64,000 bases of DNA from Diacronema lutheri (lineage: Eukaryota > Haptophyta > Pavlovophyceae > Pavlovales > Pavlovaceae), in NCBI GenBank assembly GCA_019448385.1, contig JAGTXO010000045.1, forward strand, positions 118,501 through 182,500, written 5' to 3'. Every line of letters starts with the position of its first letter. Positions within the stretch are counted from its first letter, which is position 1. This document shows, one piece after another, positions 1,075 through 60,000 of this stretch. Below the pieces are notes generated by a model that was given only the letters and a program-made list of their open reading frames with translations, did no database searches and was not told the DNA's origin. A program made the position numbers and the translations under genes.

Positions 1075-1108
1075 TATGCACGGAAAGTATATACTCACGG
1101 CGCTTACG

Positions 1109-3645
1109 TCAGGACAGCGGGGTCAGCACCAGCTGCGGGGGAATCGAGTAGCCACCAATGTCGTCGATTCCCGCGTAGCTTGAGTATATAGGGTTCTTCC
1201 GAACCCTACGCAGCCCCCGTGGGAGCTTGAGCCAGCGTGTTCCGGAACGTGTTTTGCGTCGATACGGGCTGCAGCCGCGCCGCTGTCGCGGGGGTGCCGC
1301 ACATGGCGGCCCAAAGCGGCCGCCTGTCGCGGCGAGCGATCGCGGGTCGTGCACGTTGTGCCGACTGTCGGCGCAGGCGACGCCGCCCGCGGTCGCATCG
1401 AGCGACGCGTCGCCCAGCGCGCCTCGCGCCGCGGGCCAGCTGGCCGTCGGCGGCGTCGCGCTGGGCCTTGGCGGCTGCACGTGGGTGGCTGTGGGCGCCT
1501 CGTCGGGTCCGCCTGGCCGGCAAGCCGCGCCGTCGCACGTCGGCGAGAGCGCGTCGTCCGTTGCACCTCTGCCGCTCCGACCCCGACCGCGCCCGCCACT
1601 CGCCGCGCCGCGCGCGGCAGCCGCACCGCGCCCACCGCGCGCGCCACCTCCACTGCGCGCGCCGCGCGCAGCGCCGCTGCCGCCGCTGCCGCCCTGGCTG
1701 CCGCGGCCGCCGTCGCCGCCGTCGTCGCCGCCTTCGTCGTCGTCTTCGTCACCGTCGTCGCCGCCGCCAGCATCGCCGCCGCCGGCGTCCGCCGCTCCGT
1801 GGCGCACGTCGTGCGTGCGCTCCTGCTCGTAGGCCACGCCCCACAGCCGCGCGACCTTGGCGAAGCGCGTGCGCTCGGACGTGATCTCGTCGCACCACTG
1901 CTCGCCGGCGGCATGGTACGCGACCATGTCCAGGACGTCGTAGTAGATGTTGCGCGCCGCCGTGAAGTCGCGCTGCAAGAAGGCGTTGCACCCGGAGCAG
2001 AAGGCGATGCGGCGGACGTCGCGCTGCCCGCCGGTCGGACGTGCCACGCGCACCTTTGCGTGGTCGAGCTGCGCGCAGCAGCGCTCGCGCCTGCGCCCGC
2101 CGGCGGCGCCGGCATCGGCGCCAGCGGCGGGCGCCGCGGCGGCCGGCGGTCCGGCCGCAGCGGCGTTCCCCTCGCCGCTCGCAGCGCAGCCACCGCACGT
2201 CGCGTCGCGCGGCGCGGCGGGGCCGGCGGCGCGCGCCTTGGCGCGGAAGACCGAGCAGCTCTTGCTCGACAGCGGCTCGGGCACAAACGTCGTCGCGACG
2301 CCGAGCTTGCGCAGCGCGCGCAGCAGCCCGACGCCGAGCGCAGGCGCGGCGCCGCGCGCAAAGCCGCCGCCGCGCGAGCGGTGGAGGAAGTCGCCGCAGG
2401 CGACGAGCAGCTGGTCCGGACGCAGCCCGACGTCGGTCGCGTGCGCCTTGACAATCCGCGCCGCCGCCGCCGCCGCCGCCGCGCGCCCGCACATGGCCGA
2501 GCGCGCGTTCGAGCGCAGCTGCGCCGGCGTCGCGTACACGGGCGCGGTCTCGGCGCGCATGCGCGCGCGCGCATTGTTGTAACCGAGCAGCTGGTTCGCC
2601 TCGGTCGCCGTGTGTCCGACGTGCGCCGCGCGCAGCGCTGCCTCGAGCGACGCCGCCGTCGGCCCCGCGCCGGCGCCGCCGGCCGGTGGCACGCCGAGCG
2701 GCGCGTGGCGCCTGCGCTCAAGCGCCGCGCGCGCGCGCGCGTGGCCGGCGCGGTGCGCGCGCGCCGCCTGCGAGATGGTCACCGAGATGGGCGCGAGGCC
2801 TTGCCCGCCCGGCTCGTACGTCACCTGCGCGCGCGCGCCCGGGTCGATGACGACGAGCTTGAGCTTGTGCTCCTTGAGCGCCTCGCTCAGCTCGGCGGGC
2901 GTCGCGAGGTCAAGCGGCCCGTTCGGGTCGCGCCACCGGTCGAGGCAGGTGCGATCGCGCAGCGGTGCGGGCTCGAACACCCGAGCGACGAGGTTCACCT
3001 TCTGCCCGTCGCACAGCGCGTACAGCACGGGCTGCCGGCCGGCCGCCGCCTGCGCGGGCAGGGGCTCCGAAGCGACGTACGTCTCGCGCTCCGCCGCGGT
3101 GAGCGTGTTTGGCGGCAGCTCCTCGAGGGCGTAGCGGAAGGCGCGGATGGACACCTTGAAGAAGCGTGCAAAGGCGCGCATGCTCACGCGCGGGTCGCTC
3201 CACGGCCACTCCACCGAGGCATTCGGCCGCAAGCGCGCGCCCTCGGCGGTCACCAACGTGGCGAGCTCGGCGTCCAGCGCGTGCCGCTCGTCGGTGGTGA
3301 GGAGACGGTAGAGATCGCGCGCGTGGAACGCGACGCAGCGCGGCACCTGGTCGCTTCGCCTTGGGCAGATGGCGTGCGGCGGCGGCCTGCCACGGATGCG
3401 CGTGTAGAAGAGCGCGAGGCGCGCGACAAGAGCGACGCTCTCCGCTGCGTGCTTGTCCTGCGGGCCGCCATGCGCGCCGCGCGACACGGGGGTCGGCCGC
3501 CATGCGCGCCGCGCGCACACCGCCCGTCGCGCGCCCGTCGCCCGGCCACACGGCCGACCGCTCGCGCGCCGCGGCGCGCACCTTGTGGAAGAAGTAGCCG
3601 GTCTTGTACCGCAACGTGCGGGTCGCGCCCTTGCTGTCGGTCTCC
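1109..3645 (-). CDS. Fanzor (eukaryotic TnpB-like) RuvC nuclease domain region
   Basis: C-terminal part of a long mobile-element frame, read here as a Fanzor nuclease, the eukaryotic relative of IS605/IS607 TnpB (RNA-guided DNA endonuclease). Seen: RuvC-I Asp in VVIDPG (codon 2843-2845); a GD-containing strand (VACGDF); the Fanzor-type relocated Glu in VPEPLSSKSC (codon 2276-2278); a zinc-ribbon knuckle FCSGC (~1991-2006); and RuvC-III QRDFTAARNI with catalytic Asp (codon 1967-1969). The first knuckle reads CSVF rather than CxxC, with a CGGC nearby. An intron at 3458-3581 (donor AAG|GTGCGC, acceptor CGCAG|GAC, phase 0) joins YFFHK to DKHAAES. The tail (~1110-1830) is Gly/Arg/Asp-rich and disordered. 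Upstream the frame is continuous with the next entry except for one TAG at 3648-3650. The family call is strong; activity is unknown. Confidence 0.8.
1139..1215. other. hairpin cluster at the 3' end of the Fanzor gene
   Basis: Two inverted repeats lie close together: GGGAATCGA/TCGATTCCC (about 1139-1171) and AGGGTTC/GAACCCT with a 4-nt loop (about 1190-1207), the latter inside an outer GCGTAG/CTACGC pair. They overlap the last ~35 codons of the ORF. TnpB and Fanzor guide RNAs are usually encoded at the 3' end of the nuclease gene, so this is a candidate omega-RNA scaffold. That role is inference. Confidence 0.35.
3458..3581 (-). other. intron inside the Fanzor-type gene
   Basis: On the minus strand the coding sequence ends in AAG at 3582 and is followed by GTGCGC, the usual 5' splice site of host genes in this window. 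An acceptor CCGCAG ends at 3458. Both junctions are phase 0, and the protein reads smoothly across them. The 124-nt intron contains a 32-bp tandem duplication (about 3463-3526) that would otherwise look like a frameshift lesion. Confidence 0.75.
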
Positions 3646-3647
3646 TC

Positions 3648-6600
3648 CTACGTGTACTGGACGTCCTTGAGCACGAATTGGCCGAGGTGCTCGCGGAGGG
3701 CGGGAGAAAACCGATCCCTCTGCGCAATATCGCCCTCCCACACAGAGTGGGCGAGCTCGCGCGCGCGCCTCTCGCGCTTCTTGGCGCTGCCGCCGCTGCC
3801 GCCGTCGATCGCGTGCTGCTCGTCGAGCGCGGCGCGCATGAGCTTGCGCAGCAGTAGCCACGCGACGCGGCGCGGCTGCTCTTGGAACGCTGTCGCCATC
3901 TGCGTCGCCTCGTGATCCCTCGCGTCAGTGAGCGAGTTGCCTTGTTGCGACGGCGGCGTGTGCCCCTCGAAGACGCGCCGGGCCGACGGCGCGAGCGACG
4001 CGCGCGCGGCTTGCGTGGTCTCGATTGGCGGGCGACCGCCGTGCCTCGGGTCGGGCGGCGAGACGACGTGCAGGGCGGCCGTGCACAGCGTCTCGCCCAC
4101 GGCCAAAAGTCGCGCGGGCAGGCCGCCCTCGGCCGGCATGCCCAGGAGCACGCGGTCGGCGAGCGTGTCGTACGCCTTGATCACGTCATCGTGCATCTTG
4201 CGCGCGGCGTCAGAGAGGCGCGCGCGCTTCTCGGCGCTGATGAAGGCGTGCGGCCCGAGCGGGATCGCCCTGACGATCTCGCGCAGGTGCGGCGGGCGCT
4301 GCAGGACGGAGGTCTTGGCGCCACGGCGGGGGCGGTCGACGGGGACGCCGGCCGCGGCGGCGGCGGAGCTGGCGGCGCCCGAGCCGACGCCGCCCGCCCC
4401 GCCCGCGCCCGGCGCGCGCGCAGCATGCTCGGGGCTGCGCGCGCGCGCGGGCGCCTTGCCACCGCGCGTGCGCTTGGCCTGGCCAGGCGGCGCGTCGTCC
4501 TGCTCGGCGCGCGCCCGCCTCGTGCCCCCGCCCGCGCCCGCGCCCGCCCCGCCGCCGCCGCCGCGCCCGGCGCCGCCGCCGCGCGCGCCGCCGCCACGCC
4601 CACGCCCTTGCCCACGCCCTCGCTTTGCGCCCGGCGCGCCCGCCTGCCCTGCCGGCCGCTTGCCCGGCGCGCCCCCGCCGGTGCGGCCGCCGCGGCTCGC
4701 AGACCCGCCGCCGCCGCCTCTGGCCCCATCATCGTCATCGTCGTCGTCGTCGTCGCCGTCGCCGTCGTTGCCGTCGTTGTCGTCGCCGTCGTTGTCGTCG
4801 CCGCCGTCGCCAGCGCCGCCGGCGGCGCCGGCCGTGCCGCTCCGCTCGCGCGCGTCGCGCTGCTGCCGCACGACCCGCACGCCGGCCGCGCACACGTCGC
4901 GCGCGCTCGGCCGCAGCCAGCCGAGGTTGACCAGCAGCGCGCTGCGCGCCGCGCACAGCGCGCGCTGCGCGTACGCGAGCGCGCGCAGGTGCGCCGTGCC
5001 CTCGTCGCCCTCCTCCCTCCGCCAGTGCTCGACGGTCGGCGCATCGCCCGCATGGTAGCCGAGCGCGCCCGCGTACGCGCGCGCGAATTCGGTCGCCCAG
5101 CCGGACGCGAGCGCGCTCGCGCCGCCCGCCGCGCTCGACCCCGCCGACGGCCCGGCCGCGCCGGTCGCGACCGCCGCCGGCACGCTCGACGGCGCGACGA
5201 AGGTGACGACGAGGAAGCGCCGCGCCGACTGGGCGTCCGCCGCCGGCAGCACGAGCAGCAGCTCGGGTGGGCGTCCAACGCCCGGCGCGTGCGCGACGAC
5301 GAGGAGCTCGGTCGCGTTCGTGAGGTGCTGCGCCGCGAGGTCCTTTTGCGCGCGCGCATCCGCCGCGAGCATCTGCGAGGCGACGGCCGTGCCGAGCGCG
5401 AATCGCTTCTGGCGCGCGCGATCGGGCAGCGTGACGAGCACCGCGTCGAAGGCGGCCTCGGGCACGCTGCCGCGCGTGCCGTTGGACTGCTCCAGCTTGG
5501 CCTCCCACGCGGGCAGGCCGCGCGTGGCCGCTGCGCCGGCCGCCGCCGCCGCGGGCGCCACGCCGCGCGCGCCGCCCGCGGGCGCCGTCGGCTGCGGCGG
5601 ATCGGACGCGGCCCGTGGGACGAGGGCGCCGTGGGCGGCGGTGTCGCGCACCAGCTGCGCGTACATCTCCGAGCGCACCTGCCGCAGCCGCAGCGCGCGC
5701 CGCGGGTCGCGCGCGAGGGCGGCGACGGCGCGCTCGAGATCGAGCGGCGCGTCCACGGCGGCGAGCGCGCGCTCGACGCACTCCGACGCAATGACGAGCG
5801 CCCCGGTGCGCGAGTCGGCGAGACGATCGACGCGGAACCGGCCCGCGTCCTCGCACGGCCCGCCGACGGCGGCGCGGTGCTCGACTTGCAGCACCGCCGC
5901 CAGGTCCGCGACGAGCGCGCTCGCCTTCTTCTCCACCTCCGTCGCGCGAAGGCTCGGCCGCGTCGGGTTGGCGAGCTGCGCGTAGCCCGCGCGCGCGCCG
6001 TCGCGCGGCACGACGATGACGACCGCCGCGCCGACGCGCCTTGACCAGCACGTGACGAGCAGCACGACGCCGCGCGCGCCACCGTCGCCCCGTTGCTTTT
6101 CCCACGCGTCGCGCAGCGCCGCCTCCGCGGCAGCGCGCGCGCGCCCCGACGGCGCGGCGCGCATCGCCTGCGCGGCGTCGGCGAGCGCGTCGACGGCCTT
6201 GACGCCCAGCACGCGCGCGCCGCGGTCCAGCGCGCGCGCGTCGAGCGCGCGAAGCTCCGCTTCGAGCATGGTCTCGGGCAGCTCGCACATGTGGCCGACG
6301 AGCGCGCCCACGTCGCGCGCGCTCACGACCGCGCCGCGGTAGCGCCACTGCAGGCGCTCGAAGCACCGCGCCGCATCGGCCACGCGCGCAAGCGCCTCGG
6401 CGTACGCACGGCCCGCCTCGCCCTCGCGCGCGCGCGGCACGGCGGCGAGGTGCGCGCACCCGCGCAGCCGCGGACCCGCCCCGGGCGGCTGCGCCAGCTG
6501 CTCGGCGCGCCGCGCGTCGCTCGCGGCGTCGGGCGGCGGCGGCGGCGCCGCCGCCGCCGCCGCGCGCGCGCGCCGACCGCCATGCCCCGCACGGTGCTGC

Positions 6601-9600
6601 GGCGCGTGCGCGGCCGGCGCATCTGGCGCGCGCGCGTCGAGGTTGGCGTCGCGATCCGGCCCGTGCGCGCCGCAGTCCACCGCCTCCTCCTCCGCATCGA
6701 CGCGCGCGTAGACCAGCAGCTCGACCGTGCTCGCCGACACCTTCACGTCCGTGAACCGCCGCACCGTCGCCTGCGCGACCTGCACCCAGCCGCGCGCGCG
6801 CCCGGCGCCGTCCATGGCGAGCGCGAAGCCGGCCCGCGCGTCCGCACCGCCGCGCGCGTCGGGCGCGACGGCCGCGCGCAGCCGGTACGACGCGCGCGCC
6901 GCCGCGCCGGCCGCCGCGCCGGCCGCCGCGCCCTCGCGCGCGGCGACGCGCAGCTCGAGCGGCGCGCGCGGCAGCCGCGCGCCCGCGCGCACGGCGCGCA
7001 CGACGAGGAGCGGAGGCGGTGGCCGTGTCCCGAGCGCATCGCGCACCCTCTCCGCCAAGTCGGCCTCGCCGGCCGCGCCCGCGCCGTCGACCTGCACGAA
7101 GCACGCCTCCACCTCGGCGCGCGGCTCGCGCGGCCGAGTCGCTGCGGCGGGCGGCGCGAGGCCCAGCAGCGCGGCGAGCTGCGCGCCATCGTCCGCGCCG
7201 CCAGGAGCGGCGGCGCGCCGTGGCTCGGTGCGCAGCGTGCCGAGCAGCGCGCCGAGCAGCGCGCCGAGCAGCGCGCCAGCGTCCGCCGACCGGCCGCCCC
7301 CCTCGCCCGCATAGCCCGTCAGGGCGCGCGCGAGCTCGGCGATGCGCACCGGCCGTGTGCTGCGCGCGAGCTCGCTCAGCGTGCGCGCGAGCGCCGCGCA
7401 CAGCGCGCGCGCGGCGGTGGGCGACGCGTCGGCGGCGTGCGACGCGCCGCCCGCGCCGCCCGCGACGACAGCTGCGGGCGCGCCGCGCGTCGCGTCGGCC
7501 GCGGCGAACGCCGCGCGCCGGATGCACGGCAGGTGCGACAGCACGCAGACGAGCGCCGCGAGCGCCGGCGCCGCGCCGGCGTCGCGCACGCCGACGCATC
7601 GCGCCGGGCCGTCAGCGCACCGCGCCGCTCTCATCGCCTTGCGGCGCACGCACCGCTGCCACGCCGGGTGCCGCAGGTAGGCGCGCGCGTCCGCCGCGCC
7701 TAGCGTGCGGTAGTGCTCACGCTCCCGCCAGAACTTCTCGAGCGCCGGCGTCGCGCGCGCGAGCCAGTCCGGGTCGCGCCGGATGGTGATCGCCACGAGG
7801 CGCGGCAGCCACGTCTGCCTCGCCACGCCGCTCCCCCGTTTGGGCCGCGCCGGCACGACGACCGCGAGGAGGATGCCCTCGTACTCGCCGGAGAGCGGAA
7901 AGTAGAACTGCGTCTGCGAGTGCCACTTCGCGGGCACGCGGATGGCCGCCGCCCTCGCGTCGGCCGCGCGCGAGTCGCCGGAGACGAACATGTACTTGAT
8001 CTCGAGCGAGCGCCCCGTGCCGTTGCTCAGGCGCAGCACGTACCCGTCGAGCGTGCCGGCGAGCGGCGCCGCCACCTTCTGCCGCACAGCTGGCGGAGGG
8101 CGCGTCCGCGGACCGCCATGAATCACCACGTAGTCGTCTCCGAGCCGGTGCTGTAACGCCTCGGCGGCCTCCCGTTCCCTCGCGAGGCCCTCTCTCATCT
8201 CGAGGCTCTCGAAGGTCGGCGCTGGCAAGCCCAGCTTGCGGAGGAGCGCGTTGTCACACCCCGCGGCCGCGTTGGGGCTGAGTACGCTCTGGATGTCCCT
8301 GCCCGTGATCGACTCGTCGACGCTCGGCGGCTTCTCGCCCTCCCTCGCGACGCGCTCCAGCTCGGATACGTAGAACGGCACGGCGAGGTTCGCGGCGGCC
8401 AGCCGAGCGCACAGCGCGCCGAGCGCGACGGCGTCCCGACCGTCCACGACCGCCGCCTGCCCCGCCCGCGTCCACACCTCCCTCCGCACCTCGGCGCCGG
8501 CGCGCGCGCTTTGCGGCCGCGCCGCGACCACGCCAGCGGCGGCCGCGATCGGAGCTTCGGCCACCGCGCGCGGAGGCGCCGCCACGCGCGCCGGCACGCC
8601 GCGCTGCCAGCGCGCGACCGCGCCGTCGACGAGCGCTCGCGCGTACCCGCTGCGGGAGAGGGCGTCCACCGCCGCGCAAATCACCGCCGCCTCGCTGCCT
8701 GGCGCGCTCGCCGCGAGCGCCGTGCCGAGGCCCTCGTCGCGCGCGATGCGCCGAGCGAGCAGCGGCATGAGCAGCTCGTGCTGCCAGAGGGACGTGACGA
8801 TCGCGCCAAGGTCGACGAGCGCGATCCCGTCCTCGTGCGCGATGCGCCGCTGCCCGTACGATGCGTGCGCATCCGCGCCGTCGGCGCCGAGCGCCGCACG
8901 GCTCAGCACGTGCAGGTTGCGCGGCGTCGCGCCCGTCCGCACCACCAGCGTGACAAAGAGGCTCGTGCCCTGTGCCCCCTCGACTCGCACCAGCGCGACC
9001 GCGCGCGCGCCCAGCACGGCCGGGGCAGCGCGTGTGCGTCGTCCGGCCAGGGCCATCGCGTGCGACTTGGCCTCCGTCTGCGCTGGCGAGAGCACCGTCC
9101 ACCGCTCCGCATCGGGCGGCGCCTGGCCCGCGTGCGGCGCCGCGACCTCGGCGACGAGCGCGGCTATCTCCGCGTCGGCCGCGGCGCGACAGGCCGCGAG
9201 CGGCGGTGGGCGCTCGAGGAGCAGCGCGCGCAGCGTGCCGAGCGTCGGCGCCGGCGCGTCGGGCCAACGGCCCAGGCGCTCCACGTACGCGCCGACGACG
9301 CGCGCGAGCTGCGCAAGCGTCCCAAAGTCGATCGCGGCGGCGGCAGCCGCCTCGGCTTTATCGGCGCCGCCGTCCGTGCGCACGAGCAGCAGAAGAGCGC
9401 CGTCGCCGGCCACGGCCTCGAGCACCCCGGCCGCGTTCGGCGGCAGCTTCTCGGCGCCGTCGAGCTTGAGGTCGCCGGGCACGAGCGCCGCGTGGTGCCC
9501 GCGGTCGGCGGCGACGCCCCGGTGGACCACAGCGCCGCGCAACGCGTAAACGCCCTCGACATACGCGCCGCTGCCGCTCGCTTCGCCGCCGGCCTGATCG

Positions 9601-10173
9601 GCCCGCACGCGCAGCGTGTCGCTCGTCAGGCACGCGCCGGCCACCTTGGTGACCACGCCGGTGCGCTCGTCGCGCCGCGCCCGCCCCACGTCGACGATGA
9701 TCGTGCGCGGCAGCGCACGCAGCCGCGCCGACGCGAGCCCCGCCTCGACGCCATCGGGCACGCCCGCGACGTGCAGCACTGCGCATGGCGCCGTGCGACC
9801 GCCCTCGCCCACGACCTCGCTGACGAAGGGTGGGTCGTCGGACCACGCCTCGTTGAGCATCTCGGCGAGCAGTGTGGCCATGGCCGTCGCATCGCGCAGG
9901 CGCTCCGCATCGAGCTTGAAGTAGCCAAACTCGTCGAGGCCGCTCGCGCGCTGCAGCTCGTGCGCGAGCCGCTGCACGGGCAGTCGGCGCGGCGCCGGTC
10001 CCGGTCGCCACGACGACGTGCAGCAGCACGCTCTCGAGCTCGAGCTGGGCGCTCGCCCGCGCGTCGTCGGCCGCTCGGTCCGCCAGCTCATCGGCTGCCG
10101 CCGGCGTTGGAAGAGCGCACCAGCGGCGCGCCAGCGTCGCGCGCACGCGAGCAGAGGCCGCGACGAGATGCAC
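3648..10173 (-). CDS. giant Fanzor-linked protein with PD-(D/E)XK nuclease core
   Basis: A ~2000-residue region in the same frame as the Fanzor domain. I recognise only one domain, a PD-(D/E)XK nuclease core of YqaJ/lambda-exonuclease type: Asp in GTLDGY (codon 8046-8048), Glu-Ile-Lys in LEIKY (8001-8003 and 7995-7997), then HSQTQFYF with Gln at 7914-7916, spaced as in YqaJ-like recombinase nucleases. N-terminal (8.3-10 kb) and middle (5-7.6 kb) parts look globular but unknown. 4380-4870 encodes a Gly/Arg/Asp low-complexity linker. The best N-terminus (Met at 10173) is out of frame with the rest; a one-base shift or a ~40-nt intron near 9985-10010 is needed to join them. The frame meets a TAG at 3648-3650 directly before the Fanzor part, with coding-like sequence on both sides. 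It may be one fusion ORF with a nonsense codon, or two genes. Confidence 0.55.
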
Positions 10174-10231
10174 GGCTGCGCGGAGCGCGCAGAGCCCGGC
10201 CTCGCCCGGCGCGCGGCCGCTCCGCTTGTCG

Positions 10232-10482
<251 letters not shown>

Positions 10483-10647
10483 TCGACAGCATGGCGTCGT
10501 CCAGCGTCACGCCGCGTCGTGGTCCTGCCGCTCCTCCGTGGCGCACGGATGGCGCTTCTGCATGACGCAGCCGAACGACGTCGCGGCGTCACGGCCCGGG
10601 CGCAGTCGCCATCCTGGACGCCACGCTGGACGACGCCATGCTGTCGA
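10483..10647. repeat. 25-bp perfect inverted repeat with 115-nt spacer
   Basis: The 25 bases at 10483-10507 are the exact reverse complement of 10623-10647. The right arm is followed by tandem copies of a 16-bp unit (GCCGCCATGCTGTCGA, about 10640-10672). The structure sits between the trinucleotide tract and the MITE-like element, upstream of the Fanzor-linked gene. It could be an element terminus or a transcribed hairpin. Confidence 0.85.
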
Positions 10648-10678
10648 GCCGCCATGCTGTCGAGCCGCCATGCTCCGA

Positions 10679-11001
10679 GGCGCCGCCGCTTTCTAAAAGG
10701 GTGTAGGGTGTACGGTGTAGGATGCAAACCAAGCCCTCCCCACATTTGGGCCCGACGTCATTCCTTCTTTCGTCACAGCGTCATTCCTTCTCCCCCCTAT
10801 GGGACTTTCATAACCGTACTTATCCTACACCCTACACTATGCAAATACCTAGAGAATAGATACATCCTACACTAAGTAAAGGTACTCGTATGTGAGTAAC
10901 GTCACGGCTTCGAAGAAGGAATGACGTCGGGCCCAAATGTGGGGAGGGCTTGTTTTGCATCCTACACCCTACACCCTACACCCTTTTAGAAAGCGGCGCC
11001 G
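10679..11001. mobile_element. MITE-like foldback element with ~90-bp terminal inverted repeats
   Basis: The left arm (about 10689-10770) and right arm (about 10912-10993) are near-perfect inverted copies, starting CTTTCTAAAAGGGTGTAGGG and ending CCCTTTTAGAAAG. The arms carry TGTAGGG-type heptads (CCCTACA on the other strand) and a GGGCCCGACGTCATTCC segment. GGCGCCG occurs at both outer edges (10679-10685 and 10995-11001) and may be a target-site duplication or an extension of the repeats. The ~140-bp interior is AT-richer than its surroundings and has no ORF. Non-autonomous DNA transposons have this form; the superfamily cannot be told from sequence alone. It lies immediately upstream of the Fanzor-linked gene. 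Confidence 0.8.
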
Positions 11002-50870: not shown

Positions 50871-51007
50871 GCTGCCGGGTGATCCCCAATAAGAAGCATC
50901 AAGCACGTTTTTTATGATTTCACACCAAAAAGGGGGCGTGTCCAGCACGCAGCACCGTTCAGCCCTCCCGGTTCCGCGTGCGCCTCCACGCGGGACGCGA
51001 TCGATCG

Positions 51008-54000
51008 ATGGTGCTCAACGAGAATCCCTCCGACGGAAGCGGTGGCGGCCGTGGTGCAGGCCGCGCCGGTCGCGGCGCGGCACGCGGCGGCGACGGCAGC
51101 TCGCGCGGTGGCGGCGGGCGCGGTGGTGGCGGGCGCGGTGGCGGCGGGCGCGGTGGCGGCGGGCGCGGTGGCGATGCCAACGCGCACGCCATCGCGACGG
51201 GCGGCGTGCGCGCTGATGCGGACAGCGAGCGTCGCTTCGTGAATGGCGTCATCAAGAATGGTGGACCGTTCCGTTGGCCAACGGACGGTCGGCGCTTCCT
51301 GCTCGCGGCCGCACGGCTCGACGGGCTCGAGCTGCTCAACCTGCTCACGAGCACGCAGTGGCACGGCGCGCACGTGCTGCGCGCCGCGCTCTGCTCCGAT
51401 GCGTCGGGCGACGTGGCGCGCTTCATCGGCGACGCGGTGGTGCCGCTCCTCGAGAAGCTCGGTTCGGACGAGCTCAACTCGAGCATCTGCGCCGAACCGC
51501 TCTGGCAAGTCCTCGACGTCGTCTACTCAGCGCCCGGCCTGCCGCGCGCGATGAGCGACGCGCTCGAAAGCGGCGGCCTGCCCGACGCGACGGCAATCGC
51601 GTGGTTTGTGCTCAAGCTGGTGACGCGGCTGTCGAGCGCGCGTTCCGACGTGGCGGTGCGCGCGGTCGTCGCGCAGCTCGAGGCGCGCGACGTGCCCGGT
51701 GTACAGCGCGTGCGGCTGGTGCTCGAGGGGAGCGGTCGCATGGGCGAAGCCGCAACCGACGGTGCGGCGGGCACGAACAACGTTTCGCTCGACGCGGTGC
51801 GCGACGAGCCGGGCGGGCGGCACGACAACGATGCGCGCTCCTTCCGCGACGTGCAACTGCTGCCCACCGCGGCGGAGGTCACGTGCGAGCGCGACGCGTA
51901 CCTCCCGCCGCCCCTGCCGCCCTCGTCCGCGCCGAGAGAGCCGCAGGCGCTCGCTGCATTGCAGCCTCTGCGGATGCAACCGCAGCAGCAAGCCGCCCAG
52001 CAGCCGCACGCCGCCGCCGACGGCGCGCAGCAAGGCGCCGCCGGTTCGAACGACGCACCGCTGCTCGCACCGGTCGTGCTGCGGCTGAGCGGCAGCGCCG
52101 ACGGCGATGCGAGCGCGTTGAGCACGGCCGCCGCAGGGGTGGAGATGGCGCGCCGGGAGGCGGCGGTACTGGATCGCCATTTCCGTTTGCTTCGGGAGGA
52201 CATGGTCGCGTCGATCCGCGACGAGCTCGCACCGCTGCTGCGCGATTTGGGCGCCAACGCCAACGCCGACGCGACCGCGCGCCGCGCGCACGTTGGTCCG
52301 GACGCAGCAACGCGCGAGCAAGGCCGCGCGCAGCTGCGGCGGCACACCTACACGGGCGTGCGGCTCGATTCGGCGCAGGTCGTGCCGCGACCCTGCGTGA
52401 AGGTGAGCTTTGCGCTGCCCGCGGGCCACGCGGCGCTCAGCGTGGAGGCGGGCAAGCCGCGCGAACGCTGGTGGGAGGCAGGCAACGCGCGCGGCACAAT
52501 GGCAATGCAGGCGCTCGTCGTCCTCGCGCGGCGCGGTGAGCCGCCGCTCTTTGCGCAAGTCGTGTGCCGCGAGGCCGCGTGGCTCGCCGAAGAGCGCCCG
52601 GCGGTTGGCCTCAGCTTCCTGTGCTCGCCCGCCGAGCTGCGCTCGCTGCTCTGGCTCGCGCAGTCGCACGCCGCGCTGCCGGGCGCTGCGCTTGTGCAGG
52701 CGAGCGCGCCCGTCTTTGCCTACCTGCCGGTGCTCAAGACCCTGCAGGCGATGGACGCCATCCCGCTCGCCGCCGAGCTCGTACACGCGTCGCAGACCAG
52801 CCGGCCAGAGTACGCCGAGGATGGGCGCGTCGACGCGCGCGCCGAGCTCGCGAGCGCGAGCCTGCAGTCGCTCAATGCGAGCCAGCAGCGCGCGGTGGAG
52901 CACGCGCTCACGTCGCACGTCGCGCTGATCCAAGGGCCGCCCGGCACAGGCAAAACGCACGTCGGTGTGCGCCTCGCCGAGATTCTGCACCGCACGACCG
53001 ACGAGACGATCCTGTGCGTCTGCTACACCAACCACGCGCTCGACAGCTTCTTGCTCGACATCATCGCGGCGGGTACCACGAACATCGTGCGTATCGGCGG
53101 CGGATCGAAGGGCAAGGCGCGCGAGGTGCTTGACACGTACAACATTCGCACGCTGATGCGGGCCAATCCGAGCCAGCGCTCGCGCTTCGCCAGGCAGCGG
53201 TACGCGCAGCTCAGGACGCGCGCGGACGAGCTCGTGCGCACAATCGACGAGCACACCGCGCAGCTGCGCGCGACGGCGATCGGGCCCAAGTGGTGGAAGA
53301 CGGTGCAGGACTTCTTGCACGACGCCTACCCCGCCGCGTGCGCGCAGCTCACCGTCGATGTGCACGCGCCCGGCGCGGCCGGCGGCGACGACGGCATGCA
53401 GCTCGTCGGAGCCGGTGGACGACGGATCGACGCAAACTACCTGTGGGCGCGCTGGCTCAAGGGGCAGGACGCGGGCGTGTTCGCGGCGCGCGTGCGGCAG
53501 CAGGTGGCGGCGCGGGCCGTGTTACAGGCAGGCGGTGACGCGCCCGCCGTCGTCGACGCGCTGAGCGGCGATGTCAACCTCTTTGCGCTGCCCAAGGCGG
53601 CACGCGTGCGGCTGAAGGCGCGGATCGAGCGCGAGCTCTTTGCGCCCGCGTGCGAGGCATTGGCCGACGCGCTGCACGATTATGAGCAAGTGCAGCACGA
53701 GCTCAAGGTGACGATGCGCCGCGCCGACTGGGCGAGCGTCCTTCGAGGTCGGCGCGTGATCGGCTGCACGACGACCGGCGCGGCCGAGTACGGCAGCGTG
53801 CTCGCCGACCTGCGCATCGGCGTGCTGCTCGTCGAGGAGGCGGCCGAGATCCTCGAGGCGCACGTGCTTACGAGCTTGCAGCCGTCGGTCAAGCAGCTAA
53901 TCATGATCGGCGACCACAAGCAGCTGCGCCCAAAGGTCGCCACGTACGCGCTGCAGGCCGAGGCGCACGGCGGGCACGGGCTCAACGTGTCCCTCTTCGA

Positions 54001-57000
54001 GCGGCTCGTCCTCGCGGGCGTGCCGCACATCACGCTCAACGTGCAGCACCGGATGCTGCCGGCAATCTCAAGCCTGATCCGGCCGACCTACCCCGACCTC
54101 CTCGACCATGCCTCGGTGCACACGTACCCGCCCGTCCGCGGCCTGAGCGACAGCCTCGTCTTCGTCACGCACGACGAGCGCGAGGGCGGCGCGCGCGGCG
54201 CGGACGACGGCGCGCAGTCCAAGGTGAACCACTTTGAGGCTGAGCTGGTGTGCGCAATCGTGGAGTACCTCTTGCGGCAGGGCTACGCGCCCAGCCAGCT
54301 CGTCGTGCTCACGCCGTACCTCGGCCAGCTCATGATCCTGCGGGCGGCGCTAAGCCGCACGCTCAAGGTTGCGCTCGGCGAGCGCGACTCGGATGACGTG
54401 CAGGCGCTCGCCGCAGACGACGAGGGTGGCGCGGGCGGCACGGGCGCGCCGGCCTCGGCGGCGCCCGTGCTCCCGCCCGCGGCCGTCGCGCAGCCCGCAG
54501 CCAGCGCATCGCAGCGCGACCGGCCGCCGGCGCGCGGGCAAAGCGGCGCGCTCGCGGCGACGGCACCGGCCGCGCCGGCCATCCGCGTCGCAACGATCGA
54601 CAACTACCAGGGCGAGGAGGCGGACGTGGTGGTGCACTCGCTCGTGCGCGCCAACGAGGGCGGGCACATTGGCTTCCTCAAGGAGCCCGAGCGCATCAAC
54701 GTGCTGCTCAGCCGTGCGCGGCACGGCCAGATTCTCGTCGGCAGCGCATCGACGCTGCGCGCCGGCGGCGGACGGCGCGGCGGCTCCGAGCTGTGGCGGC
54801 GGATCCTCGACGAGCTCGCGCGCGACGGCCGACTGCTCACCGGCGTGCCCGTGCGCTGCCGCCGCCACGGCCGCTCGCCCGCGCAGCTGCCGGCGAGCGC
54901 GGCCGAGCTGACGGCGTGCTCGCCGTGCGGCGGCTGCGACGAGCCGTGCGAGCTCGTGCTGCCGTGCGGCCACGGCTGCCCGCTGCGCTGCCACCCACTG
55001 GACGCGGAGCACGCGAAGGTGCGATGCAAGGTCAAGGTGCACGAGATGTGTACCGCCGGCCACATGCTCGTCCGCACGTGCGCCGACAAGGATTCGCGCT
55101 GCGCGACGTGCGCGGCGCTGCGCGCGCTCGAGGCGGCCGCGCGCGCGCGCGCGGCGCGTGCGCGCGAGCGCGAGGCGACCGAGCTCGCACAAATCGCAAC
55201 GCGGCGGCGGCAGGCCGAACTGGACGTGGAGGCCGCGCGGCAGCGTCGGGAGGCGCTTGAGCGCCAGCACGCGCAGCGCATCCATGTCGCGCGACTCGAG
55301 ATCGACGCGGCGCGCGAGCGGGCACTTGCCGAGGCGCTCGCGCGCAACGCGCCGGCCGAGGAGCGCGCGGCGGCTGCCGAGGCGCATCGCGAGGCGAGCG
55401 AGGCGCTCGCGCGCGCCGAGGCGTCCAGCGCGGCGCGGCGCGACGAGCTCGAGCGCGCCGCCGCCGAGCACGCCGCCGCTGAGCGCGACGCGGTGCGTGC
55501 GGCGGCCGAGCGCGCGCGCGCGGAGGAGGAGGGGGCTGCGTGCACGCTGCTCGCGCTCGACCATCAGGAGCGCGCGCTGATTGGCGGCTCGGCAGGCGCG
55601 TCGATGGCGGGCGTGAGCGTGGGCTCGCTCACGCAGCTGCGCGACGGCCTTCGCGACGTACTCGCCGGCTCGGCGAGCGTCCGCGGGTGGCTCGCTGAGC
55701 GCGCGGCGGCGTCCGGCTTGGCCGAGCTCTCGCGCGCGCTCGGCTCAATTGCGCGCTCGCCGCTGATCGGCGTCGACATCGTCGGCGCGCTCGCGCTCGC
55801 GCAGCCCGAGCCGACCAATGCGGACCGCGCCGGCGAGTCGGCCGGCGCGCCTCGCTCGCGCGCGCTCCCGTCCGCGTGCGAGCGCGCAGTCGAGCTGATC
55901 GGCCGCAGCGAGAGCCTGAGAGCGCACGCCGCGCTCGAGGCGCACGTGGCAATGGACGAGGGCTGTCGGCTGCTCGCCGACGTGTGCCTGATGCTCGTGG
56001 GCGCGCACGGCGGCGGCAGGATCGCGCGCCCCGCCGCGCCCGACGACGGCGGCGCACCACCGAGCGGCGCGGCGGGCGAGGACGCGTCGCTCTGGCTCTG
56101 GCGCCTCGCGCGCGCGCTGCAGCTCACGGCCGATATTGGAGCAGCGGCGGACGGCGCGCACTCGAGCTCGGCGACAGCCGATTGCGAGGCGCTCGGCCAG
56201 CTGCTCGCGTTCCTCGCGCACCCTCTCGCCGAGCTCTACGCACCGCTCGCGCAGCTGGCGCGTGAGCGCGCGCGTACGGTCGGCGGGCGCGGCGCCTTGC
56301 GCGCCGGCGGGTATGCGCCGGCGGCGGGCGGTGGCGGCGGCGCGCTCGACGAGGCCGGCAAGCCGCTCAGCGCAAAGCAGCGCGACGCGCGCGAGCTGCG
56401 CGAGCTCGCGCGTACCGCCGACCTGCCCAGCCTGCGCGACGTGTCGGCGCTGACGGGCATCTCAGCCGTCAAGCGCCACTTCTTTCGCAAGCGCGACCGC
56501 GTGCGCCTCGCCAAGGAGCGCGGCGAGGACCTGTCGTCGACCAATCACCACGTGATCTTTGTGGGCAACCCGGGCACGGGCAAGACCACCGTTGCGCGCA
56601 TCTACGCCCAGCTGCTGCTCGAGACGGGCGTCCTCCCGCGCGCGGCCGTCGAGGAGACGAGCGGCGTCAGGCTCGCGACGGGCGGCGTCAGCGCGCTCAA
56701 CGAGCACCTCGGCAAGCTGCGTGACGGCGGGCTGCTCTTCGTGGACGAGGCGTACCTGCTCAACCCGACGACGAGCGCGACGGGCGCGCAGGTGCTCGAC
56801 ACGCTGCTCACGGAGATGGAGGAGCGGCGCGGCAAGCTCGTCGTTGCCTTCGCAGGCTACGCGCAGCGCATCGCGACGCTGCTCGAGCACAACGAGGGGC
56901 TGCCGTCACGCTTCCCCGACACACTCGTCTTCGCCGACTTTGAGGACGACGAGCTCCTCAGCGTCCTCGACGGGCTCGTCGACGGCAGCCCCTTCTGGCT

Positions 57001-60000
57001 CACCGACGCCAAGCACGCGCGCATCGCTGCGCGCCGGCTCGGGCTGCAGCGCGGCACGACCGGCTTTGGAAACGCGCGCGCCGTGCGCAACCTGTGGGAG
57101 CGCACGCTGGCGCGGCAGGCGGAGCGCATCGTCGCCGAGCGCGCGCGCTCTGGCGGCATCGTCTGCGCGGGCCAGTCCTCGTCGCCCGCCGACTTTGAGA
57201 TCCGGCGCGAGGACCTGCTCGGCCCGCGCTGCGCCGACTGGTCGGAGCTCTCGCCGCTGCGCGAGCTCAACGCAATGATTGGGCTCGCGGCGGTGAAGGC
57301 GAGCGTGCGCAACCTGCTCTCGCTGCTGCAGACCATTGCCGAGCGCGAGGAGGCGGAGGAGCCCGTGCAGTCCGTGACGCTCAATCGCGTCTTCCTCGGC
57401 AACCCGGGCACGGGCAAGACGACCGTCGCCAAGCTGTACGGCGCCATCCTCAAGGTGCGCGCGCGCGCCGGCGGCGGCGAGGGAGGGGGGTGGGTGGGGG
57501 GGGGGGGGGGGGGGGGGAAGGGAGAAGCGCTCGCCACGGCGGTTGCTGCGCCGTTGGCCCGTCACTCGCAGTGCGCTCGGCTTAGGCGCCTCTCGCTGGC
57601 TGAGCGCGCGCGCACGCGCCTCCCGCCGCTGCATGCGGCGCGCACCTCGCGCGGCCCGGGGCGCGCAGCACCTCGGGCTGCTCTCCAAGGGCGACGTGAT
57701 CGTCAAGACCCCGGCTGACTTCATCGGCGCCCACCTCGGCCATTCTGAGCGCCAGACCGCCGCGATCCTCGAGCAGGCCAAGGGCAGCGTGCTGGTCATC
57801 GACGAGGCGTACGGGCTCGTCTCGGCCGGCGGCGGCGCGGCCGGCTCTGCGGCCAATGCCTTTGGCGCGGCGGTGATCGACACGCTCGTCGCGACGGTGC
57901 AGGGTGTGCCGGGAGACGATCGCTGCGTTCTGCTCCTCGGCTACTCGCAGCAGATGGAGGTCATGCTGCGCGAAGCCAACCCCGGGCTCGCTCGCCGCTT
58001 CCAGCTGTCGGAAGCCTTCACCTTTGCGGACTTCTCCGACGACGAGCTTTGCCAGGTACTGCGCGGCAAGGCGTCGGCGGGTGGCTGGCAGCTGCCACGC
58101 GAGGCGCTCGAGGCGGGCATTGCCGTGCTTGCCAAGGAGCGCATGCGCCCCAACTTTGGCAACGGCAGTGCCGTCGCCAACCTGCTGAGCGCGGCCGTCC
58201 AGCGCTTCGAGCAGCGGCACGCACATCTCGCGCCGGCGGCGCGCGCGGCGCTCAAGGCGCTTGGCGCGGTCGACTTCGACCCGTCGGCGGGGCAGGTGGC
58301 CTCGCTCGCGTCCATCGAGGCGCTCTTCTCCGACCTGCTCGGCTGCGACGACGTGCTTTGCCAGCTCCGCACCATCCACAAGACGATTGCGCTCGCGCAG
58401 CGACTCGGCAAGGACCCGCTCGACGAGGTGCCGCTGGCGTACGCGTTCACCGGCTCGCCGGGCACGGGCAAGACGACGGTTGCGCGCCGGATGGGCACGC
58501 TCTTCCATCGGCTTGGGCTGCTCCCCTCGGACGACGTGAAGCAGCATTCGGCGAGCGACTTCTGCACGGGCTTTGTTGGCCAGGCCGCGTCAAAGACGCG
58601 CAAGCTGTTTGAGGCGGCGCTCGGCGGTATCCTCTTCATCGACGAGGCGTACAGGCTGCACCCCAAGCACTCGGCGGGCGGCGGCTTCATGCAGGAGGTG
58701 GTCGACGAGATCGTCAACCTGCTCACCGAGCCCGCGTTCCAGGGCAAGATGGTCGTCATCTTTGCCGGGCGCGCGCCGCGCGCGGCCGCGCGGGCGCCGC
58801 CGGCGCACAGGCAGCAGCGGCCGCCGTCGTCCACGCGCCGGCAGTCGTGCGAGCTGATCGCGCCCGGTCCGCGCTGCACGCGCCCGCCCGCATGCGCGCG
58901 CACGTCGACGCCAGGTACGCGGACGAGATGGAGGCGATGCTCGACGCCAACTCGGGGCTACGCTCGCGCGTCACGGGCCGAATCCACTTTGCCGACCTTG
59001 CGCTGGACGACGCGTGCGCGCTGCTGGTCAAGAGCGTGCGCGCCAAGGGCCTCGAGCTGAACGCAGAGGCGCGCGCGGAGCTGCCCACGCTCGCGCGCGC
59101 GCTCATCGCCGCGCCCGGCTGGTCCAACGGGCGAGACGTGGCGACGTGGGCCAAGGCCATCTTCCAGGCGCACGGGCTGCGCCTGCCGCCGGCGGGCGAG
59201 GCGGACGCGATGGTGGGCGTCGGCGCCGTGCGCGAGGCCACCGCGCAGATGATCGGCACCAAACAGGGCGCGGTGGTGATGGCGCGCGAGGGTGAGCGCG
59301 CGCGTCTGCGGCCTCGGGCGCTGCGGCCTGCTTGCCGCGTCGCAGCCGTGCCCCTCCTCTTCTTGCGCGCCCGCCGCTGACATTGCCCGCCGCTCGCCGG
59401 CTGCGCTCGCCCCTTGCGCGCGCGGCAGAGCATCCGCCGAGCGCGAGCGCACCGTGTGCGCCATCGCCCGCCGCACGGCCGGCCTGCTTGCCGCCGTCCA
59501 CGTCCGCATCGCACGCCGCCAGGTGGGCGCAGCGCCGCGCCGATGCCCCGCTTCGCGCCTCGCGCCCGTGTGCGCGCGCGCTCGCGCCGCAGCGCGCGCC
59601 CACCTCACGTCGACGGTGCATGACACCTTCCGCGCGTCATTGTTTTGGCGCCGTCGCAGCGCGCCGCCACCCGTTGCGAACGACCAGCCGCTGGCGGAGG
59701 TGGACCCGCCCGGCGGCAGCGCCACGAGCAAACTGGCCGTCGAGGTGCGCGGCGCCTCCGACTACGAGATTATCGCCGCGCTGCAGGCTGCGCTCGTCGA
59801 GCTCGGCTACGACGCGTCGCACGAGCGCCGGCTCGCGCTACGCGACGTGCTGCGCGCCATCGGAGGTGGCGGCGCATTCCCGGACGAGATCACGCGTCTT
59901 GTTTGCGCGCGCAACCCGGGCGCGGATGCGGCCAAGGTTGATGGAGCTCTCCGCCCGCAGGTGCCTGCCGTGCTCGCAAGCGTGTGCGCCGCGATCGAGC

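Follow-up and report, generated by a model that had tools for sequence, protein, structure and literature searches.

The window, a stretch of 64,000 nucleotides from the haptophyte Diacronema lutheri (contig JAGTXO010000045.1, positions 118,501 to 182,500), carries on its minus strand two overlapping stop-to-stop open reading frames (ORFs): 3648-10757 (2,369 aa), which holds a nuclease, and 1109-4180 (1,023 aa), which holds a Fanzor. Fanzors are eukaryotic relatives of CRISPR-type RNA-guided cutters. Both ORFs lie in a recently damaged copy of a large D. lutheri mobile element, 5'-shorter than its nearest relative (the C36 copy). In related copies the element very probably encodes a single long spliced protein with an exonuclease and a C-terminal Fanzor, the element ending just after it. 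The features of the window copy are:

1184..10486, minus strand: element copy, 98.3% identical to the C36 copy over 1277-10490, with different flanks
3582..10170, minus strand: first exon (frame A) of the long gene, from codon-position GC and the frames of relatives; upper limit approximate, start codon not placed
9480..9731, minus strand: weak ubiquitin carboxyl-terminal hydrolase-like stretch (PF00443, E=0.014, 15.4 bits against a cut-off of 23.9)
7689..8315, minus strand: RecE/YqaJ/lambda-exonuclease-like PD-(D/E)XK domain (phrog_434, E=4e-8; D, ExK and Q motifs aligned with relatives)
3669..4322, minus strand: N-terminal part of the Fanzor, in the exonuclease frame (blastp to the C28 copy, E=4.5e-12)
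3648..3650, minus strand: in-frame TAG, particular to the window copy and absent in its C36 relative
3458..3581, minus strand: inferred intron, 124 bp, GTGCGC...CCGCAG, phase 0; its position is shared by relatives, its length is variable among them
1750..3457, minus strand: second exon (frame B), with the RuvC half of the Fanzor and the zinc-finger cysteines (codon-position GC, alignment, motifs); downstream limit approximate
1184..1207, minus strand: 3' terminal GNRA hairpin with TATAC tail (end alignment, hairpin pairing, DNA and RNA folds)

A preliminary description of this DNA had placed RuvC motifs of a Fanzor (IDPG, PEPLSSK, QRDFTAARNI and a CxxC) and a nuclease core (LDGY, EIK, SQTQ) on the minus strand, and both sets are present there. 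The Fanzor set comprises VIDPG (2851-2837), PEPLSSKSC (2281-2255), CSGC (1999-1988) and QRDFTAARNI (1975-1946), and the exonuclease set comprises GTLDGYV (8057-8037), LEIKYM (8006-7989) and HSQTQFY (7922-7902). The published Fanzor motif, D-X(125,275)-[TS][TS]XX-C4-X(5,50)-RD (PMC3627910), occurs in only one ORF across the six frames of the window, with 191 residues from D to SS, the cysteines present and RD 5 residues past the last of them. This motif and the nuclease profile match both exceed chance. Across five families of the same genome the invariant residues include D201, E322, C365, C368 and D375 (numbering of the trimmed window row). The catalytic D, E and D appear to be kept, the choice of E322 resting on how far it lies from the [TS][TS] motif and on comparison with SpuFz1, for which the available text gives D383, E541 and D606 as catalytic (PMC10432273). 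The Pfam model PF07282 gives the window Fanzor ORF 18.5 bits, below its cut-off of 26.3; among relatives it passes this cut-off in the C11 copy (27.3 bits) and in L001 (40.8 bits). The profile of the Fanzor alignment retrieves 12 PDB sequences at E<=1, all 12 being TnpB/OrfB/transposase, Cas12 or Fanzor entries (best E=0.026). Single sequences are less informative: the window Fanzor ORF alone has no phmmer match in the PDB, the C11 Fanzor has a single unrelated one (E=0.53), and NCBIfam has no match in either window ORF at E<=1.

The exonuclease half is likewise recognized through profiles and relatives. The phrog_434 profile, which represents a phage RecE-like recombination exonuclease, matches the C11 copy at E=1.4e-15. 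Single models are weak on the window, where Pfam YqaJ has no match to the nuclease domain at E<=3 and the Pfam search of the long ORF returned nothing at E<=1. In the C11 copy, PF09588 reaches E=0.015 within the long frame and 21.4 bits against a cut-off of 22 with the domain alone, and TIGR03033 reaches E=1.5e-5, far under its cut-off score. The best PDB match of the exonuclease alignment is 4ic1 (E=0.33). As for the ubiquitin-hydrolase-like stretch, the C36 copy has a clear PF00443 match (E=4.6e-9), farther upstream. Ulp1/C48-like proteases, a by-eye impression for the middle of the gene, were dropped, being absent from the Pfam and PDB searches. In the better-kept relatives the order is a ubiquitin-hydrolase-like part, the RecE/YqaJ-type exonuclease, a long middle, which in the amplified family described below includes a chromodomain, and the C-terminal Fanzor.

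The linkage of the two nucleases is carried by other copies in the same genome (103 contigs, 43.49 Mb), in which PF07282 matches 148 of 150 scored places (306 candidates). Such copies had been proposed as a check on the preliminary description, and the order exonuclease-Fanzor recurs in a medium and in an amplified family. The clearest case is the C28 copy, where the exonuclease and the RuvC half share a single frame of 2,372 aa, the intron happening to be in frame. Seventeen of the 19 medium-type exonuclease loci can be paired with a Fanzor locus, and in 15 of these 17 pairs the exonuclease frame continues, open and congruent, through the Fanzor N-terminus into the intron. For C28 and C78 the sequence separating the two loci was read directly, and for C12, C89 and C28 the start of the frame, as calculated from its reported length, coincides with the observed upstream stop; in the other pairs, continuity over ~0.8 kb is deduced from congruent frames and reported lengths. 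Protein matches between the window and C28 are collinear for the exonuclease (E=1.7e-16), the Fanzor N-terminus and exon 2 (E=1.6e-37 and 2.0e-28), with no significant match in the middle region. Domain order is kept across families whose Fanzors are ~30-50% identical.

The junction within the Fanzor behaves like an intron. Ends of the form GTGCG...GCAG are found in 18/18 medium and 3/3 L013-type loci examined, with lengths of 293-401 bp and phases 0, 1 and 2 in 4, 8 and 9 loci, respectively. The codons flanking the site are conserved on both sides, and this combination of fixed position with variable length and phase is what a true intron would be expected to show. L015, a fourth L013-type locus outside that count, has neither intron flank. 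The amplified family is without an intron at the medium-family site and has a 128-bp GTGCGC...GCGCAG stretch slightly farther on.

In the window the two halves were described as sharing one frame, which does not hold: the ORFs are offset by one base, and the in-frame TAG and, downstream of it, the inferred intron lie between them. The idea that one element combines both nucleases is supported for the window, medium and amplified families, the relatives indicating one gene, with the 2,372-aa frame of C28 as its plainest instance; it does not hold as a single frame in the window. Codon-position GC favours frame A from ~10.2 to 3.58 kb and frame B from ~3.45 to 1.65 kb, the signal switching between ~3.6 and 3.45 kb; frame B is slightly ahead at 7200-6901 and 4800-4351. 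The C36 copy, 98% identical, is without the TAG of the window but has its own stop within the exonuclease region. On the 5' side, likeness to the C36 copy stops at ~10486-10490, inside a GCC repeat, and the C36 copy continues upstream; the 3' terminus of the window copy is at 1184. The ubiquitin-hydrolase-like part, the hairpin terminus and the damaged, 5'-shorter state of this copy go beyond the preliminary description.

Coding constraint was assessed with 500 permutations that preserve base changes and codon positions. In exon 2, protein identity between the window and C28 is 0.494 against 0.409+-0.012 permuted, with no stops against 4.6 expected. The other frames of this pair give 0.415 against 0.398 and 0.439 against 0.400, frame 2 exceeding the permutations by a smaller margin. 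For the exonuclease region, identity to C82 is 0.774 against 0.755+-0.006 (0/500), with 2 stops against 2.4 expected.

The 3' end of the element was aligned over 24 loci. In the medium family, 17/18 ends finish ...GTATATAC, L033 finishing GTATAGAG, and 4/4 L013-type ends finish ...CTATATAC; L037 and L023 have no end in this alignment. The window finishes ...CCCTATATAC and C36 finishes ...CCCTCTATAC, both after a GNRA-loop stem, and the amplified family finishes ...CTATAC or CTACAC after a different hairpin. The ends are sharp and the flanks differ between copies. Over six distinct ends the hairpin is paired in 92.9% of cells, and 4/7 pairs are changed on both sides. Its covariation score is 0.495 against 0.235 in shuffled ends (0/500), a value uncontrolled for the relatedness of the ends; two weaker measures, both-side pair changes (80/500) and further pair types (468/500), are not above shuffles. 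In RNAalifold, 87 columns of five ends give a slightly unfavourable covariation term (+0.76). The window has one hairpin-TA[TC]AC site. A genome-wide scan for the medium end motif gives 22 sites, of which 19 belong to listed Fanzor copies, the reversed control giving 1. The window end folds well as DNA (z -4.2); Rfam has no match at E<=1 in window 1100-2000. In SpuFz1 the omega-RNA lies at the corresponding 3' place, according to the text available (PMC10432273). The hairpin and TATAC tail are a candidate for the 3' part of an omega-RNA, or for a DNA end signal; a DNA hairpin that serves a transposase would give the same picture at the end of an element.

The amplified family, with copies spread over many contigs, gives the element its high copy number. 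With the YqaJ domain of C11 as query, all 150 scored places match (239 candidates); after rounding, 129 of these are 100% identical and 21 are 98-99% identical. One frame of the C11 copy, 5,837 aa or longer, holds a chromodomain (PF00385, E=3.8e-12), the YqaJ domain and the Fanzor N-terminus, after which the RuvC half follows in a different frame; in the family as a whole these three parts lie in frames of ~4,500 aa. In C71 the YqaJ match sits in a 4,518-aa frame, the same length as that of the chromodomain frame there. The chromodomain likewise matches all 150 scored places (260 candidates), and at 102 the frame is at least 4,000 aa long. Once four unlike chromodomain matches had been removed, 91 of 103 same-strand YqaJ-chromodomain pairs have equal frame length and 12 have not. 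Among the matches listed, 90 of 148 Fanzor TNB matches have a same-strand chromodomain 2,295-2,324 bp upstream and 58 have none at that place; no TNB match has a chromodomain in the 4 kb downstream of it, and within 5 kb there is a single pair on opposite strands. Counted from its TNB match, the C9 copy is at least 18.9 kb long, and its similarity to the C69 copy persists up to the last base read.

Several other observations concern these families. The 5' part of the amplified family (L063, L068, L072) includes a stretch 88% identical in protein to the medium-family exonuclease, with the catalytic lysine lost in L063; it appears to be an older fragment carried along during amplification. A second, more typical Fanzor family (L001, L002, L005) has frames of up to ~1,780 aa. 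Among the matches listed, no same-strand exonuclease match lies within 20 kb of the copy at C1:154701, so that not every long-frame Fanzor here is shown to carry an exonuclease. The stretch C27:254647-256756 combines a Fanzor TNB match with a reverse transcriptase match 1.25 kb farther downstream on that strand, the latter within a frame of 1,210 aa. In the available text of the D. lutheri genome paper, long terminal repeat (LTR) elements are the largest annotated repeat class and the main text is without a word beginning 'transpos' (PMC8379373). By contrast, RVT_1 has only 16 matches genome-wide. At a guess, the annotation may have assigned the chromodomain-bearing Fanzor element to the LTR class.

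Taken as a whole, the window is on balance best read as a damaged copy of a mobile element whose fused exonuclease-Fanzor gene acts by cutting, resecting and copying. Domain order, linkage, splice pattern, terminus and high copy number are observed; the mechanism itself, with its RNA guidance, resection and copying, is tentative, and is proposed because of the known activities of the two enzyme families. The Fanzor would bind an omega-RNA read from the 3' end of the element, with flanking DNA as the guide, and would cut a site. The tethered exonuclease would then resect the cut, and homologous recombination would copy the element into it. Saito et al. suggest, in the text available, that RNA-guided Fanzor cuts may promote copying by recombination (PMC10432273). 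How a Fanzor benefits the elements that carry it is an open question, and a Fanzor joined to an exonuclease makes the recombination-copying idea directly testable, the many near-identical copies in a small algal genome adding to this. The protein would also be a case, found in nature, of a guided cutter with an end-resecting enzyme tethered to it.

A bolder version, which we regard as improbable, has a giant mobile element free of any transposase. The Fanzor would be its sole cutter, directed by an RNA that comes from the right end of the element itself, the tethered RecE-type exonuclease would open the cut for recombination, and the chromodomain of the amplified family, with its at least 150 near-identical copies, would read chromatin. 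If true, this would be a self-contained eukaryotic cut-resect-and-copy machine. Pfam transposases, reverse transcriptases and Helitron proteins have no match in the parts of the element read (5' end excluded), and the C11 frame has no Pfam transposase at E<=0.5. Genome-wide, RVT_1, the sole reverse transcriptase model tried, gives 16 matches (17 candidates), compared with 150 or more copies of the element, and Helitron_like_N gives one (C63). These are too few to be part of the amplified family, other transposase models not having been searched genome-wide. An unseen transposase in the unread 5' part is possible.

A number of results weigh against the favoured reading. At a GC content above 75%, long open frames arise easily. 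Genome-wide, Pfam YqaJ (PF09588) matches 1 of 150 scored places (C71, 28.2 bits). Structure predictions were too poor for use, with a pLDDT of 36.8 for the exonuclease and 35.5 in a second prediction. In 2 of the 17 medium pairs (C4 and C46b) the exonuclease frame is incongruent with the Fanzor. Positions 6623-7880 have no clear coding signal (59/500), with 2 stops against 1.0 expected, and Nei-Gojobori dN/dS is at least 1 in 12 of 14 comparisons, counter to selection among close copies, though it is a poor measure at this GC3. The Fanzor alignment query of the protein database found only two proteins, P0004 (from a short contig, unnamed) and P0005, a D. lutheri gene model. The latter, the sole related gene model found, covers only the Fanzor part of the decayed C33 copy, and no transcript was seen. 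As to mechanism, no omega-RNA, guide or TAM was seen, only the conserved 3' hairpin, the 5' ends lying outside the stretches read; the window end, folded as RNA over 107 nt, does not stand out (z -1.5).

The same element could be moved by an unseen enzyme, acting in cis or in trans and perhaps by Helitron-like rolling circle, with the Fanzor as a passenger or regulator and the 3' hairpin as a DNA end signal. This is possible, though doubtful. A 3' hairpin is typical of Helitrons, and the available text on the Chlamydomonas Fanzor1 elements CRe-1,2,3 describes them as Helitron2-like, with many 5'-shortened copies (PMC3627910). The window copy is 5'-shortened likewise, its terminus folds well as DNA, and the 5' end of the element lies beyond the stretches read. 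Yet the genome has a single Helitron_like_N match, the element ends in TATAC rather than CTRR, RVT_1 matches fall far below the copy number of the amplified family, and the C11 frame is without a recognizable Pfam transposase at the threshold given above.

That exonuclease and Fanzor are two separate genes, the continuity of frames being only apparent in G+C-rich DNA, is quite unlikely. Long frames do occur by chance, the window having 95 stop-to-stop frames of at least 300 aa, and the linker is of low complexity, the middle showing no significant similarity between the window and C28. Against this stand the congruent open frames of the medium pairs, the one-frame codon-position signal as far as the intron, a splice junction inside the Fanzor that places its N-terminal part in the exonuclease frame, and an order conserved between families with divergent Fanzors. 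It is very unlikely indeed that the copies are an amplified host gene family or a subtelomeric repeat rather than a mobile element. Several contigs have their start close to or at the amplified element's end, C1 and C12 precisely at its terminus; but an assembly break at a repeat boundary gives the same contig starts, and the copies are dispersed over many contigs, with sharp ends and differing flanks. No link to telomeres is claimed from these contig starts, as an assembly break would look alike.

Around the element, an alpha/beta-hydrolase gene at 88-1122 (PF12697, E=3.8e-19) directly adjoins its 3' end. Just upstream of the element, a fold-back repeat at 10681-11001 (89-nt arms, 97% complementary, spacing 143 nt) looks like a separate small insertion. 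Farther away, a plus-strand frame of 2,266 aa at 50918-57715 combines an AAA_11/AAA_12 helicase (E 1e-30 and 1e-34) with a second AAA ATPase with AAA_lid_6.

The preliminary description knew of no earlier account of this domain combination, and the literature searched agrees: no paper was found that holds both Fanzor and YqaJ, most subscription papers being outside the reach of the search. TnpB and YqaJ occur together only in a bacterial genome-trimming paper, and a fusion of Fanzor and exonuclease is absent from the available parts of PMC3627910, PMC10432273, PMC10711439 and PMC11423790. No fusion of TnpB with a chromodomain was found in the parts of the literature available. In the protein database, none of 8,000 candidates scored in the first Fanzor query reached E<=0.01, alanine-rich words having probably filled the candidate list, and the medium-family exonuclease gave none at E<=0.001. 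These limited results say nothing on the fusion outside D. lutheri. In viral contigs, 102 and 119 stretches fit a pattern, none of which was confirmed.

The domain combination is real and unusual, within a known kind of element and in a damaged copy. The Fanzor1 elements, as far as the available texts describe them, have the same Fanzor motif, the nuclease near the 3' end and a structured 3' end at the place of the omega-RNA (PMC3627910, PMC10432273). SpuFz1 is one ORF in a ~2.1-kb locus (PMC10432273), whereas the Fanzor of the present element forms the C-terminus of a protein thousands of residues long that also includes an exonuclease. With the Chlamydomonas Helitron2-type Fanzor elements the present one shares, in the text available, a 3' hairpin and 5'-shortened copies (PMC3627910); it differs from Helitrons in its TATAC end, in place of CTRR, and in the single Helitron protein match of the genome. 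The ISL2EU transposons, as described in the accessible text, are likewise eukaryotic elements with a YqaJ exonuclease domain (PMC4482050). Their YqaJ is encoded by its own ORF next to a DDE/THAP transposase, whereas here YqaJ is joined to a Fanzor, with no Pfam transposase in the parts read (5' end excluded). With the phage RecE/lambda-type exonucleases (phrog_434, PF09588, TIGR03033) it has the profile match and the core motifs in common; unlike these, the exonuclease here is part of the protein of a eukaryotic element, joined to a Fanzor.

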